Of a stretch of 40,537 nucleotides of DNA, positions 23,674 through 29,664 are shown piece by piece. The notes below the pieces were generated by a model. It searched no databases, was not told the DNA's origin, and saw only the letters and a list, made by a program, of their open reading frames with translations. A program made the translations under genes and the position numbers. Source of the DNA: Thermoplasmatota archaeon (GTDB lineage Archaea; Thermoplasmatota; E2; DHVEG-1); contig JAFGPP010000040.1 of NCBI GenBank assembly GCA_016936135.1, positions 1 through 40,537 of the forward strand, read 5' to 3'. Every line of letters begins with the position of its first letter. Position 1 is the stretch's first letter.

Positions 23674-24510
23674 TTAAAACCTATGGGATATATAGTCAAT
23701 AACTGACTCAAAGATTACTCTGCCATCGCCTTCCAATTCATTTAAACCTTCTCGAGTCCAGTCTGAATGTTGATATCTAAAAAAAGCCCTCTCTGGATGG
23801 GGCATCATACCAAACACATTTCCTGTGCAGTTACAGATACCAGCAATATTAGATATTGATCCATTAGGATTCCAGGGATAGCCTTTTTCATCCCCATCTA
23901 AATCAACGTACCTAAATACTATTTGATCGTTTTCCGCAAGTTTTTTTAAATAATAATCCTGATTTTCCAATGGAAATATCAACTTGCCTTCTGCATGGGC
24001 ACTTGGAATTAAACGAATGTCCCCATTTGGGATTTTATTTGTAAAGATACAATTTCCGTGGTTTTCATGTCTGAGTAATGTTGGTCGGCATTCAAATTTA
24101 TTAGAATCGTTAATATTAAGACACGATTCTGAAACAGAACTTAATAATGATTTCATCCCAGGTAGTAAACCCAACTCAATCAATATTTGAAAACCATTAC
24201 AAATTCCTAGAATAGGATACTCCAAATTAACAAAATCTTTGAGTTGTTTTTGCAGCTTACTTTTAATTCTTGCAGCAAAAATTGCCCCTGCTCTTATATA
24301 ATCGCCTGCTGAAAAACCCCCAGGTATCATTATACATTGATAATCAAAAACATCTCTTTTTTCCGAGTTGTTACAATCTATGTGTAATAGTTGCTTGAGA
24401 TGCACCATTTCTGGATTTGTGTCTAATCTTTTGAAAGCATCATATGACTCCTGTTCACAATTTGTTCCCTCGATGCGCAATATTGCCACTCTGATATCGT
24501 CTATTTTCAC
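23674..24510 (-). CDS. purQ: Phosphoribosylformylglycinamidine synthase, glutamine amidotransferase subunit
   Basis: 278 residues. Class I glutamine amidotransferase that supplies ammonia to PurL in the fourth step of purine synthesis. Nucleophile C104 in GICNGFQ and the His-x-Glu pair H238-P-E240 (MMPHPERA) are present, together with the PGGFSAGDYIRAG oxyanion region. GTG 24510 is the start: AGGTGA lies 5 bp before it, while an overlapping ATG runs straight into TGA. Residues of about 115-205 include an extension typical of the archaeal/bacterial long PurQ form. Neither purL nor purS is in the window. Confidence 0.93.
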   Translation of the reverse strand: MKIDDIRVAILRIEGTNCEQESYDAFKRLDTNPEMVHLKQLLHIDCNNSEKRDVFDYQCIMIPGGFSAGDYIRAGAIFAARIKSKLQKQLKDFVNLEYPILGICNGFQILIELGLLPGMKSLLSSVSESCLNINDSNKFECRPTLLRHENHGNCIFTNKIPNGDIRLIPSAHAEGKLIFPLENQDYYLKKLAENDQIVFRYVDLDGDEKGYPWNPNGSISNIAGICNCTGNVFGMMPHPERAFFRYQHSDWTREGLNELEGDGRVIFESVIDYISHRF

Positions 24511-24606
24511 ATTTTCACCTGATTTTAAAATTTGTAATATAATATTCCATTATTTTCTTTTCCAGTTAAATCTTTATACAATAACACAAACCTTAAATAT
24601 TGTTTT

Positions 24607-24654
24607 TATAATTATATATAATTACATATAATGAAATATAGTTAAATATAATTA
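24607..24654 (+). promoter_or_regulatory. Five 8-bp repeats at 10-bp period upstream of the RHH gene
   Basis: TATAATTA, TATAATTA, TATAATGA, TATAGTTA and TATAATTA begin at 24607, 24617, 24627, 24637 and 24647, each exactly 10 bp from the last, ending at the Shine-Dalgarno AGGTG before ATG 24664. One helical turn per repeat is the spacing at which RHH dimers line up on one face of the DNA. The array probably covers the promoter's TATA region as well, so binding would shut transcription off. Confidence 0.6.
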
Positions 24655-24663
24655 GGTGTTTAA

Positions 24664-24888
24664 ATGAATGAAGAAAAAAAATACACTACGATATCAATTC
24701 CGACTCCACTTGCAGAAAAAATTAAAAAGAGAATAAAAGGCACTGGATTTCACTCTCTTTCATCATATGTAACCTATGTTCTCAGAGAAGTAATTGCAGG
24801 CACAGAAGAAGAAAGAGAAGAAGTTTTTACTAAAGAAGATGAGGAAAAGGTCAAGGAAAGATTACGCGCACTTGGATACTTGGATTAA
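24664..24888 (+). CDS. Ribbon-helix-helix (CopG/MetJ-like) DNA-binding protein
   Basis: 74 residues. The N-terminal strand KYTTISIPTPLAEKIKKRI leads to helices with SSYVTYVLREVI, the RHH_1 layout. The strand would insert into the major groove (T, S, I facing). An acidic helix (TEEEREEVFTKEDEEKVKER) and the ending LRALGYLD complete the protein. It starts with AGGTG 5 bp upstream and lies 9 bp before sat. With the 10-bp repeat array overlapping its promoter it is likely an autorepressor controlling the sulfate cluster; the signal it senses is not evident. Confidence 0.82.
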   Translation: MNEEKKYTTISIPTPLAEKIKKRIKGTGFHSLSSYVTYVLREVIAGTEEEREEVFTKEDEEKVKERLRALGYLD

Positions 24889-24897
24889 GGTGAATAA

Positions 24898-26022
24898 ATG
24901 CCAAGACCCCATGGTGGAAAACTTGTATCCCGACAAGTAACAGATATATCTGATAATTTTGGAAAAAACCAAACTTGCGAGATAACAACAGATCAATCAG
25001 AAGACGTAATTAACATTGCAAATGGGGTATTTTCCCCTTTGCAGGGATTTATCAACCGCAATGAATTAGATAATATTGTTGCTGAAAGACGACTCGAAAA
25101 CGACGTTCCTTGGACTATTCCAATAATACTTGACACGGACAATAAAAATATAAAAGAGGGGGACAGTCTTCTAATTACCAATAAGGAAACAGGGCTTAAA
25201 GCAATAATAGATGTCGAGGACAAATACAAATATGATAAAAAAAACCTTGCCCAAGCAATATTTGGTACGGTTGAAATGGAACACCCCGGTGTCGCTTTGT
25301 ATTGCAAGATGAAAGAATATTTAATCGGTGGTAAAGTAACACTTATTAAAAATAAAACAAGAGAATTTGATCAATACAATCTAACTCCTAAAGAAACTCG
25401 CATACTTTTCAAAGAAAAAGGCTGGAGAGAAATTGTAGCTTTTCAAACTCGAAATCCGCCTCATATTGGACATGAATACGTTCAAAAAACTGCATTGACT
25501 TTTGTCGATGGTATTTTTATTAATCCAATAATAGGGAAGAAAAAACCTGGTGATTTTAAAGACGAAGTTATCCTGAAATCATATGAAACGTTAATGAAAC
25601 ACTACTATCTCAAGGAAAGATCAGTTATGTCAATTTTAAGAACATCTATGAAATATGCAGGTCCCAGTGAGGCGATTCATCATGCTATCATGAGAAAGAA
25701 TTTTGGCTGTACACATATCATTATCGGTAGGGATCACGCAGGAGTTGGAAATTATTATTCCCCTTATGACGCCCACGACATTTTCTCTGAATTTCCTGAT
25801 CTTGGAATTATACCTGTTTTTTTCAGATCTTTTTCAAGATGTACAAAATGTGGAAGTGTAGTTAACGACAAAATCTGTCCTCACGATCCCCAATATCATA
25901 TAAATTTTAGCGGAAAAAAAATTAGAGAGATATTACTAAAGGGCCAGATACCTTCTGAAGACATGATGAGAAAAGAAGTTGCCGAAACCATTCTGACATT
26001 TGAAAAACCGTTTGTCGAATAG
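24898..26022 (+). CDS. sat: Sulfate adenylyltransferase (ATP sulfurylase)
   Basis: 374 residues, monofunctional. It makes adenosine 5'-phosphosulfate (APS) and diphosphate from ATP and sulfate. Visible: QTRNPPHIGH at 183-192 (nucleotide-binding QxRNPxHxxH), GRDHAGVGNYYSPYDAHDIF at 277-296, and a zinc-finger-like C315-x2-C318 with C327-P-H329, a feature of archaeal and some bacterial ATP sulfurylases. ATG 24898 has AAGGTGA just upstream. Beside cysC and an SLC13 permease it works in the assimilatory/activation direction; no APS reductase gene lies in the window, so dissimilatory use is not supported here. Confidence 0.94.
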   Translation: MPRPHGGKLVSRQVTDISDNFGKNQTCEITTDQSEDVINIANGVFSPLQGFINRNELDNIVAERRLENDVPWTIPIILDTDNKNIKEGDSLLITNKETGLKAIIDVEDKYKYDKKNLAQAIFGTVEMEHPGVALYCKMKEYLIGGKVTLIKNKTREFDQYNLTPKETRILFKEKGWREIVAFQTRNPPHIGHEYVQKTALTFVDGIFINPIIGKKKPGDFKDEVILKSYETLMKHYYLKERSVMSILRTSMKYAGPSEAIHHAIMRKNFGCTHIIIGRDHAGVGNYYSPYDAHDIFSEFPDLGIIPVFFRSFSRCTKCGSVVNDKICPHDPQYHINFSGKKIREILLKGQIPSEDMMRKEVAETILTFEKPFVE

Positions 26023-26035
26023 AAAGGTAATTGAA

Positions 26036-27010
26036 ATGTTTGATAGTTTAAACGGAGAAGGTCTTTTAATTCATCACTGGGATACAGATGGCATATGTTC
26101 TGCCTGTCTATTGCTAAGTCATCTTAATGGTAGAAAAATTAAAAACATTACTCCTGAGCTTGGTAACTACTTTCTTACAAACGAGGAATTAGAAAATTGC
26201 AGTATTTTTGACTACATAATAGTTGCAGACATGGCACTTCCAGAGGAACAAATTTTAAAGATATCAAAAAATGCACAGGTATTCATATTTGATCACCACC
26301 TACAAAACGAAATAAAACAAGTTTTCCATCACAATCCAATAATTAAAAGTGATAAACCAAATGATTACCCCTCTGCCAGCTGGATTGTAAATGATTATTT
26401 AAAAAATCCTGTTAATCTTTTTGCAATTCTTGGTATTGTTGGTGATCACGAAAGAAGAATTTTGAAAAACCTCAAATTTAAAGAAATAATCAACAAATTT
26501 TGTGTAAAAAACAATCTAACTTTTGATAATCTTTTAAGAATGGTATATCTTCTTGATTCAAACTATAAGCTTGGTTATAAAAAATCGGTGGAAAATACGC
26601 CCCATATTCTTATTCAAATAGAATCACCGTCAGAAATACTAAATAATGAACTATGGAACAAAAATCTTTCAATTTTAGATAATGAAATTGAATTACAACT
26701 TCGTCAACCTTCAGATGAAAACAGTAAAACCATTTTCAAAAAAATAAGTACCAAATATAATATTATTTCCACAGTTACCAGAAGAATTGCTTGGGAAAGT
26801 GGTAAAAATGCAATTGTGGTAAATACCGGATATTTTTCTGACAAAGATCAAATTTATATGAGATGTGCAAAAAATGCAGAACAAATGATAAGACGGGGAA
26901 AACAACTGGGATTTAAGTGTGGTGGCAAAAAAGAAGTTTTGGGTGCGATTTTACCAAAAGATAAAACCGATGATTTTGTCAAAGAACTAAAAGATTTTTT
27001 AAATAATTAA
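26036..27010 (+). CDS. DHH/DHHA1 family phosphoesterase, candidate pAp phosphatase
   Basis: 324 residues from ATG 26036 (AAGGTAA upstream), 13 bp after sat; an in-frame TTG at 26000 is inside sat and not used. Metal-binding motifs: H13-H14-x-D16-x-D18 (IHHWDTDGICSA), D65 (VADMALPE), D86-H87-H88 (FIFDHHLQNE) and D137 (GIVGDHER). The DHHA1 domain at the end carries CGGKKEVLGA, where the usual GGGH is changed to CGGKK. RecJ-like nuclease and NrnA-like nano-RNase/pAp phosphatase share this fold. Its position between sat and cysC, followed by a sulfotransferase, favours hydrolysis of 3'-phosphoadenosine 5'-phosphate; this is inferred, not shown. Confidence 0.82.
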   Translation: MFDSLNGEGLLIHHWDTDGICSACLLLSHLNGRKIKNITPELGNYFLTNEELENCSIFDYIIVADMALPEEQILKISKNAQVFIFDHHLQNEIKQVFHHNPIIKSDKPNDYPSASWIVNDYLKNPVNLFAILGIVGDHERRILKNLKFKEIINKFCVKNNLTFDNLLRMVYLLDSNYKLGYKKSVENTPHILIQIESPSEILNNELWNKNLSILDNEIELQLRQPSDENSKTIFKKISTKYNIISTVTRRIAWESGKNAIVVNTGYFSDKDQIYMRCAKNAEQMIRRGKQLGFKCGGKKEVLGAILPKDKTDDFVKELKDFLNN

Positions 27011-27028: not shown

Positions 27029-27634
27029 ATGAAAGAACAAAAATCAGCAAATGTAACATGGCACGACCATAAAGTTGATAGGAAACAAAGAGAAAATCTC
27101 CTAAAACAGAAAGGTGTGGTTTTGTGGTTTACAGGACTTTCAGGAAGTGGAAAATCTACTATTGCTAATGAGGTTGCATACAAACTTCAAAAAATGGGAA
27201 AAATAACATATGTACTAGATGGAGATAATATCAGACACGGTCTTAATAAAGATCTTGGATTTTCAGAAGAAGATAGAAATGAAAATATCAGGAGGATCTC
27301 TGAAGTTGCTAATCTTTTTGCAGATGCAGGAATTATTACCATCACAGCTTTTATTTCGCCCTATAGAAAATATAGAAACTTCTGTCGAAATTTAGTAGGA
27401 GATAATCGTTTTATTGAGATATACACAAAAGCTTCGTTAAAAACATGTGAAAAACGTGATCCAAAGGGCCTTTACAAAAAGGCAAGAGCGGGAGAAATCA
27501 AACATTTTACAGGTATTGATGATCCTTACGAGGAACCTGAGAAGGCTGAAATCACACTGGATACAGATGTTGTAAATGTCGAAGAGGGAGCAGAAATTGT
27601 TATACAGAAAATACATGAATATGGTATAATTTAA
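27029..27634 (+). CDS. cysC: Adenylylsulfate kinase
   Basis: 201 residues. It phosphorylates APS to PAPS. P-loop GLSGSGKST at 36-44, the [20 protein letters not shown] stretch, FISPYRK, and [20 protein letters not shown], all diagnostic of CysC. The start has GGTGA upstream. Its last base is the first base of the next ATG (TAATG), so it is coupled to the sulfotransferase-like gene. Together with sat it makes the sulfuryl donor PAPS, and no PAPS reductase gene is close by. Confidence 0.94.
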
Positions 27635-28215
27635 TGGAATGCATGACACTTGATTCTTCAATTAATTATATTGTATCGGGTCTAGAGAGATCTGGCACTT
27701 CTATGCTTATGCAAATTCTTGGTGCAGCTGGGATTCCTATTTCTTATGATAAAAGTCGCTTGCCGGATACGGGTAATCCTAGAGGGTATTTTGAACTTGA
27801 TGGTGGTAAAATAATAAATAAACTAATAGATAATAACTTTCCTTTTGATAAATATCGGGGAAAATTTTTGAAAATAACATCCTATGGCCTGAAATTCCTC
27901 CCAAAGGGAAATTATAAAATAATATATTCTGAAAGAAACATTGATGAAATTCTGGATTCAATGGAAAAGATTGCCAGAATAAATGATAAAGATCGCTTTA
28001 GAACCAAAAAAGCCTTCATTAATCTAAACACATACATAAAAGGTCAAATGAGAACAAGAACTGACATTTACTATCTAATTGTCAATTATAATAATTTATT
28101 AGCAAACCCTGAAAAACATTTAAAAAAAATTCAGGAATTTTTACAACTTCCTGAAAAAACAATATTTAAGATGGCTAGTGCAATAGATCCTAAACTTTAC
28201 CGACAGAGAAAGTAG
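27634..28215 (+). CDS. Sulfotransferase-like P-loop protein
   Basis: 193 residues. VSGLERSGTSMLMQILG at 14-30 is the 5'-phosphosulfate loop of sulfotransferases (they lack the Lys-Ser/Thr of kinases), and YSERNIDEILDSM about 97-110 resembles the 3'-phosphate-binding R-x-P-x region. The length is short compared with typical 250-300 residue enzymes. No signal peptide or membrane span, so it acts on a cytoplasmic acceptor, such as a nucleotide sugar or lipid-linked glycan. Acceptor unknown. Start ATG 27634 overlaps the cysC stop; ATG 27643 is an alternative. Confidence 0.7.
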   Translation: MECMTLDSSINYIVSGLERSGTSMLMQILGAAGIPISYDKSRLPDTGNPRGYFELDGGKIINKLIDNNFPFDKYRGKFLKITSYGLKFLPKGNYKIIYSERNIDEILDSMEKIARINDKDRFRTKKAFINLNTYIKGQMRTRTDIYYLIVNYNNLLANPEKHLKKIQEFLQLPEKTIFKMASAIDPKLYRQRK

Positions 28216-28236: not shown

Positions 28237-29664
28237 ATGAATGAAAATATTGATTCATTAAAAGATAAAAATTCTTCAGTTAATTACAAAAATATATTTT
28301 TCATAATTCTTTCGTTCTCAATTATTATTACTTTTTCAACTCTGCCCTTGATACCGGGACTTTCACGTGATGGACAAATAATGATTGGTATCCTTTTAAT
28401 GGCTGCAGTTTTATGGATTACAGAACCTTTACCACTGCCCATAACTGGAATTCTACTAATGATTACACAGTCATTTATTGGCATAGCAACCCCTGCCCAA
28501 ATATTTGCAGCCTTTGGAAATCAGGCAGTTTTTTTTCTTATTGGTGCATTCATTATTGCTGCTGCTGTAAAAAATGTCGGGTTACATAAGCACTTTGCAT
28601 TTACTTTACTTAATTTTTTCAAAAACAATCCAAAACTATTTACTCTTGGAATAATGATTTCATGTGCTGTTCTTTCTTTTTTTATGCCAGAACATGGAGT
28701 AGCAGCACTTTTTTTGCCAATTGTTACCTCGATATTAATTTCAATGAAATTAATTCCTAAACAAAGTAATTTTGGAAAGGTTAGTATGTTGAGCGTTGCC
28801 TATGGTTGCTCAATTGGAAGCCTTGGAACCCTTATTGGAGGAGCAAGAAATCCTTTGACCATTGGCATTCTTGCGGAACAGGGAATAAGTGTTACATTTT
28901 TTGACTGGATGATTTACGCAATGCCAATTGTTATAATCGCATTACCAGTTGTTTGGCTTATATTACAAATTGCTTTCCCTATTGAAATTACCGACATTAC
29001 AGCTGCTAGTAAAGAGATTGCAAACCAGCTGGCAATTACAGGTAAAATTACAAAAAAACAAGTTACAACTTTATCTGTTCTTTGTGTAACTGTGCTTCTT
29101 TGGATATTTTTATCCTCTCATCCTCAACTCGGTCTTGCTGGAATTGCAATACTTGGTGCAGTTCTTATGGTTGTAACTGGATCGATATCTTGGGGAAATA
29201 TTGAAAAAAATGTACCGTGGGGAATAATACTTCTCTACGGCGGGGCAATTACCTTAAGTCACGGTATGCAGACTACAGGGGCAAGCAAATGGATTGCACA
29301 TCAATTATTGACAATTGTAGAAGTCAACCCTTGTTTAATCATCCTTGGATTGATAATTTTTACAATATTTCTAACGGAAGTTATGTCAAATGTAGGCGCA
29401 GTTGCCCTTCTTTTACCAATAGGCTTAGCAATTTCGACCGAAGTAACAGAAATATCTCCTCTTGTCTCTTCATTATTAATAGCGCTTTCAGGTGGTCTTG
29501 CTTTTATGTTAGTGATTGCAACTCCAGGCAATGCAATTACTTATTCGTCTGGATACTTTTCCACTAGAGATTTATCAAAAGCGGGAATATTTGCCAATTT
29601 AATTTGCATTTTAATAATTTTTTTCATTGCAGTTTTTTATTGGATTGGATTTTTAGGATTATGA
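28237..29664 (+). CDS. SLC13/DASS-family anion transporter, likely sulfate importer
   Basis: 475 residues with about twelve hydrophobic segments. Repeated family elements are visible: GILLMAAVLWITEPLPLPIT, LIGGARNPLTIGI, EVMSNVGAVALLLPIG and VIATPGNAITYSSG, the last two carrying SN(V/T) and PGN motifs that bind sodium and anion in the DASS fold. DASS members carry di- and tricarboxylates, sulfate, or phosphate. Sitting right after sulfate-activation genes (21 bp downstream), sulfate is the inferred cargo. Pfam-level identity is firm; substrate is contextual. Confidence 0.85.
   Translation: MNENIDSLKDKNSSVNYKNIFFIILSFSIIITFSTLPLIPGLSRDGQIMIGILLMAAVLWITEPLPLPITGILLMITQSFIGIATPAQIFAAFGNQAVFFLIGAFIIAAAVKNVGLHKHFAFTLLNFFKNNPKLFTLGIMISCAVLSFFMPEHGVAALFLPIVTSILISMKLIPKQSNFGKVSMLSVAYGCSIGSLGTLIGGARNPLTIGILAEQGISVTFFDWMIYAMPIVIIALPVVWLILQIAFPIEITDITAASKEIANQLAITGKITKKQVTTLSVLCVTVLLWIFLSSHPQLGLAGIAILGAVLMVVTGSISWGNIEKNVPWGIILLYGGAITLSHGMQTTGASKWIAHQLLTIVEVNPCLIILGLIIFTIFLTEVMSNVGAVALLLPIGLAISTEVTEISPLVSSLLIALSGGLAFMLVIATPGNAITYSSGYFSTRDLSKAGIFANLICILIIFFIAVFYWIGFLGL

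Follow-up and report, generated by a model that had tools for sequence, protein, structure and literature searches.

A sulfate-activation operon and the repeats at its promoter

The window, as we call the whole stretch of DNA analysed here, is a contig of 40,537 nucleotides from a Thermoplasmatota archaeon with an AT-rich genome of 1.7 Mb. Six tightly spaced genes lie on its forward strand. The first (24664-24888) encodes a 74-residue RHH/CopG-like regulator that has a conserved third helix and the C-terminal tail RLRALGYLD. It is followed by sat for ATP sulfurylase (24898-26022; PF01747, 3.7e-85; TIGR00339 above cut-off), a DHH-family phosphatase of 3'-phosphoadenosine 5'-phosphate (PAP) (26036-27010; match to PDB 8a8k, E 3e-39), APS kinase (27029-27634; PF01583, 1.6e-71; TIGR00455), a sulfotransferase (27634-28215; PF13469/PF00685) and a DASS-family sodium/anion symporter (28237-29664; TIGR00785, 3.3e-85) that is possibly a sulfate transporter. 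The enzyme of 8a8k is a Methanothermococcus PAP phosphatase that was shown to remove PAP and is encoded near ATPS and APSK in that organism (PMC10322725). A sequence-only reading of this DNA had placed sulfate genes behind the RHH gene, and that label is right. Judged by gene content, the operon would make PAPS, provide a sulfotransferase able to use it and a phosphatase clearing PAP, and perhaps import the anion; we infer that sulfation is at least as likely a purpose of this operon as assimilation. The divergent neighbour purQ (23674-24510, reverse strand; NF002252) is outside the system.

Between purQ and the start codon of the regulator gene (ATG at 24664), a predicted operator array occupies positions 24607-24654 of the forward strand, and its counterparts are conserved upstream of orthologs. 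Read directly from the sequence, the array has five octamers that start at 24607, 24617, 24627, 24637 and 24647, one per 10 bp. Boxes 1, 2 and 5 are exact copies of TATAATTA, and boxes 3 and 4 read TATAATGA and TATAGTTA, respectively; the TAATTA-like cores fall at 24609-24614, 24619-24624, 24629-24634, 24639-24644 and 24649-24654. The 3' end of the array abuts the Shine-Dalgarno sequence GGTG (24655-24658, forward strand) of the regulator gene. These coordinates confirm what the sequence-only reading had described, five octamers in exact 10-bp phase, three of them identical and two (boxes 3 and 4) changed, ending at the Shine-Dalgarno sequence. Its remark that exact phasing over five copies is unusual also stands: none of 20,000 dinucleotide shuffles of 24511-24663 reproduces five boxes, and the longest 10-bp run among them is three boxes, reached four times. 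When the boxes are ignored, the 10-bp self-match of the array is 33/40, compared with a maximum of 31 in 5,000 shuffles for which the best of all periods from 5 to 20 was taken. No other 10-bp repeat in the window comes close, the runner-up scoring 23. The signal lies in the phasing, since TATAATTA octamers taken singly show no enrichment across the window (10 vs 8.35 expected).

A candidate TATA box, TTAAATAT (24593-24600, forward strand), precedes the first core by 16 bp and is proposed from its sequence and from the position of such boxes at family loci. In all 30 family loci that have a good TATA box outside the array, it is upstream of box 1. The AAACC ahead of TTAAATAT may be a BRE. With TTAAATAT as TATA box, transcription would start near box 2, and the boxes would occupy the stretch between TATA box and start codon, over the putative start site and the 5' UTR. 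A second TATA-like stretch (24603-24610), which overlaps box 1, is an alternative candidate.

Conservation and confinement of the boxes

The regulator is present in 36 of 60 relatives, and 80 loci were taken from named genomes, spanning Thermoplasmatota, Aciduliprofundum/DHVE2, Altiarchaeales, Bathyarchaeota, Asgard lineages, Geothermarchaeum and Desulfurococcales. The sequence-only reading had proposed that orthologous loci with a conserved regulator be searched for 10-bp repeats, and the array is indeed present in most lineages: 46 of 59 non-redundant upstream regions have at least two TAATTA boxes at a distance of exactly 10 bp, no box deviating by more than one mismatch, while shuffles give a mean of 4.3 and a maximum of 8. 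Exact TAATTA pairs occur at spacing 10 in 26 loci, and none of the other spacings between 6 and 22 is seen in more than 4. If one mismatch is permitted, spacing 20 stands out too, as expected for a multiple of 10, and so do spacings 6 (36 loci) and 14 (20 loci); these last two would fit one-mismatch matches to TAATTA in the WTAT spacer. Across 132 boxes the repeat core is TAATTA, 94-99% conserved at five of six positions, and its fuller description is the 10-bp palindromic unit TWTAATTAWA. The number of boxes is mostly 4-6 in the window's family, and two is the commonest number elsewhere.

The canonical pair is absent in 13 of the 59 non-redundant loci. These pairless loci tend to have either a changed DNA-contacting strand (the ribbon) or another box at the same phase, which supports the reading of the array as an operator. 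Ribbons matching TT[IV]SI are found at 44 loci with the pair and 8 without it, and changed ribbons at 3 with and 7 without (p 0.001, a value that ignores phylogeny and applies to a motif chosen after inspection of the data). Against that reading, some pairless loci keep an intact ribbon, namely those of Hermodarchaeota and L069, L091, L093 and L095. Five of them (three from Hermodarchaeota, L069 and L095) have TAATGC/GCATTA or CATTA boxes that are still in 10-bp phase, and a changed box with a kept ribbon points to other contact residues that would alter box preference. In the Hermodarchaeota loci L101, L107 and L110, TAATGC and GCATTA (or TAATGT/ACATTA) alternate at a 10-bp pitch upstream of RHH-sat. 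The regulator and sulfate genes also occur, with the box pair absent, in MAGs labelled Actinomycetota and Dehalococcoidia (L066 and L093), an occurrence that may reflect transfer or misbinning.

The array keeps company with the regulator gene rather than with a particular neighbour. In 71 of 80 loci sat lies at most 60 bp downstream of the regulator, and the two proteins co-occur among the 60 relatives (32 genomes with both, 4 with RHH only, 5 with Sat only and 19 with neither; Fisher p 2e-7). Two of the four RHH-only genomes have cysD, and the other two have a diverged RHH paired with a sulfotransferase. Where an unrelated cysD takes the place of sat (L034, L051 and L068), the array is retained. 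Only 14 of 71 loci have purQ next to the regulator on the upstream side, yet the array stays; it therefore follows the regulator, and an operator for the divergent purQ is rejected. The diverged RHH paralog with a sulfotransferase alone is found at L139:1433-2303 and L140:1364-2213 without a TAATTA array, and the contig of the latter (L081) has just a weak distant TAATTA pair. Outside the window's family, genes for type I phosphodiesterase/nucleotide pyrophosphatase adjoin the regulator at L078:481-1785, L086:2722-4080 and L150:1-1091.

A search of 36 whole relatives (about 58 Mb) for a three-box pattern, allowing up to two mismatches, finds it in 17 genomes at one locus each, and 16 of these 17 loci are the RHH-sat promoter; a reversed control gives 1 match. 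Seventeen genomes from other archaeal lineages, about 32 Mb in total, were searched for the exact two-box pattern, which is present at the RHH gene in 14 of them and at only three further places, compared with 0 matches for the control, in a set that had been picked for holding the regulator and in many cases because promoter boxes had already been seen. The further places are a second RHH-sat-APS kinase copy (L150), the region upstream of a TauE/SafE anion transporter in Jordarchaeum (L148:370; gene 472-1389) and the region upstream of an uncharacterised 94-residue ORF. Since the sites are nearly limited to the RHH-sat promoter, the regulon appears to be a single operon in nearly all genomes examined. 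The one odd three-box match (G005:C121:5103-5128, L121) counts against the operator reading: it is in an AT-rich, gene-poor stretch of a genome in which no RHH gene was found. In L093, a TauE gene lies directly 3' of the RHH gene.

The regulator and its proposed action

The 74-residue protein likely belongs to the RHH superfamily, on the basis of its sequence pattern, its predicted helices and its weak similarity to NikR and PF01402. The RHH strand forms only in a dimer, and the AlphaFold model used here, a monomer, shows TTISIP as an extended stretch followed by helices at residues 14-24 and 32-49. Only one further helix follows the RHH part. Nine of 26 family members match PF01402 (RHH_1), with a best E of 0.018 that is below the cut-off, and the nearest solved relative is the RHH domain of NikR, a weak match at E 0.058-0.063. 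The window protein alone has 0 matches to profile families, and a PDB sequence search with this single protein gives nothing significant. Fold searches with the monomer model give no significant match either, which is expected for an obligate intertwined dimer, yet is not positive support. At the other end of the protein, the C-terminal tail is 64% identical to the last 22 residues of a sulfatase (L147:205-1467; G020:C22), and L(R/K)xLGY is likewise found at the end of APS kinase and CysD at some loci. The LGYL tail was considered as a sulfate-pathway docking motif given these similar ends, an idea that we did not adopt because the shared ends may just reflect a common helix end.

The sequence-only reading had taken the array to be the operator of the RHH gene and its sat operon, and the 46 of 59 loci together with the near-confinement of the sites to that promoter support it. 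More specifically, the array is very probably the self-operator of the 74-residue protein, which would thereby repress the six-gene operon. We have high confidence that the protein binds the array; that its control is repression and not activation is quite likely, and one RHH dimer probably occupies each box. An RHH dimer would sit on each palindromic TAATTA core with its two-stranded ribbon, KYTTISIP, inserted in the major groove, and adjacent dimers, one helical turn apart on the same face of the DNA, would pack cooperatively. The filled array would cover the DNA from just past the TATA box to the ribosome-binding site, an extent in keeping with promoter occlusion, which PMC5569661 reviews as the mode of action of archaeal RHH factors. 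With the promoter covered, RNA polymerase assembly or escape would be blocked and the RHH-sat-PAP phosphatase-APS kinase-sulfotransferase-DASS operon repressed, so that the regulator would determine both how much of itself is present and how much PAPS the cell is able to make and use. The C-terminal helix could be the target of a ligand, for instance PAPS, APS, PAP or a reduced-sulfur signal, which is only a guess and a rather doubtful one.

The array could also be an RHH operator at which the protein activates, toggles or mainly shapes the promoter, and such versatility has precedent in AmrZ, an RHH protein reported to do both activation and repression (PMC3325190). With elemental sulfur, Palaeococcus pacificus up-regulates both its CopG gene PAP_09880 and the neighbouring-numbered sat, PAP_09885 (PMC6981617); by analogy, this joint rise would be consistent with an autoregulated unit, and it fits either sign of control and is silent on which applies. 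We nevertheless consider such a role unlikely, since the boxes are downstream of the TATA box and over the putative start site and 5' UTR, as is typical of repressors, and archaeal RHH factors, as reviewed in PMC5569661, work by occlusion. It is very improbable that a different regulator of the sulfate operon binds the array and that the RHH protein acts elsewhere, because the site stays with the RHH gene from lineage to lineage, even where cysD has replaced sat, is found again at the second RHH-sat copy (L150), and disappears or takes another form where the ribbon is changed.

The remaining explanations dispense with a specific regulator. AT steps phased at 10 bp are a classic signal of curvature and nucleosomes, and the AT-rich region would suit an array that merely bends DNA or positions archaeal histones. 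However, the strict conservation of the TAATTA core at five of six positions, the near uniqueness of the sites to one promoter and the existence of two-box versions too short for nucleosome positioning make this still less probable than binding by another regulator. A chance run, or the decayed duplication of a TATA box, has in its favour a composition of about 31% GC; against the absence of five-box runs in the 20,000 shuffles and the wide conservation of the boxes it is hardly credible, and chance in AT-rich DNA is accordingly rejected.

Taking the array as the operator of its own repressor, the data define a precise and testable, if predicted, regulator-operator pair across several archaeal phyla including Asgard archaea. 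The site pattern can be used to find more sulfate-related genes in uncultured lineages, for example TauE/SafE, and because the number of boxes varies, the loci lend themselves directly to comparing cooperative repression among archaeal promoters. Tentatively, the pair may be an ancient archaeal regulator of a single sulfate-activation operon, extending from Thermoplasmatota to Asgard archaea, Bathyarchaeota and Desulfurococcales, in which the box and its one-turn spacing were kept while box number, the box itself in some lineages (CATTA/TAATGC) and the enzyme (sat to cysDN) changed. If true, this history would provide naturally graded cases of the effect that the length of a cooperative operator has on repression.

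Comparison with known systems

MetJ is an RHH repressor of sulfur-metabolism genes that binds S-adenosylmethionine and whose dimers bind tandem palindromic boxes cooperatively; these Met boxes are AGACGTCT, repeated at an 8-bp pitch. The window array, in contrast, has a TAATTA core and a 10-bp pitch, its 74-residue archaeal protein has no detectable sequence relation to MetJ, and spacing 8 is not enriched in the 59 non-redundant loci. Omega/ParB of pSM19035 is an RHH protein that acts on 7-10 consecutive short repeats overlapping promoters (PMC9499535). Its repeats are non-palindromic WATCACW heptads at a 7-bp pitch that serve plasmid copy control and partition, whereas the window has palindromic TAATTA at a 10-bp pitch; the core differs, and spacing 7 is likewise not enriched in the 59 non-redundant loci. 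NikR of Pyrococcus (PDB 2bj1) is matched weakly over its RHH domain (residues 7-48, E 0.06), but it has 138 residues and a nickel-binding C-terminal domain that is absent in the 74-residue window protein. F55, SvtR and AvtR, archaeal RHH proteins from viruses, act as repressors by occupying the promoters of their own genes, F55 through tandem repeats (PMC5569661). They recognise other motifs (ATAGATAGAGT and others) and have viral targets, whereas the target in the window is metabolic.

In Pyrococcus yayanosii, the CopG-type gene PYCH_17520 at a sulfate cluster is named a potential pathway regulator in the excerpted text of PMC8268124, and it is probably orthologous to the window regulator. 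As laid out in that excerpt, the cluster has copG, ATP sulfurylase, DHH PAP phosphatase and APS kinase in common with the window, where a copG-type gene also heads sat, the DHH phosphatase and APS kinase. The P. yayanosii cluster has a phosphodiesterase in place of the sulfotransferase and DASS transporter of the window operon. The same excerpt describes no operator for P. yayanosii copG, and none of the papers covered by our literature search describes an operator for archaeal sulfate activation. Tandem-box operators of RHH proteins are already known, and the array in the window differs from those of MetJ and Omega in its core and in its pitch of one helical turn.
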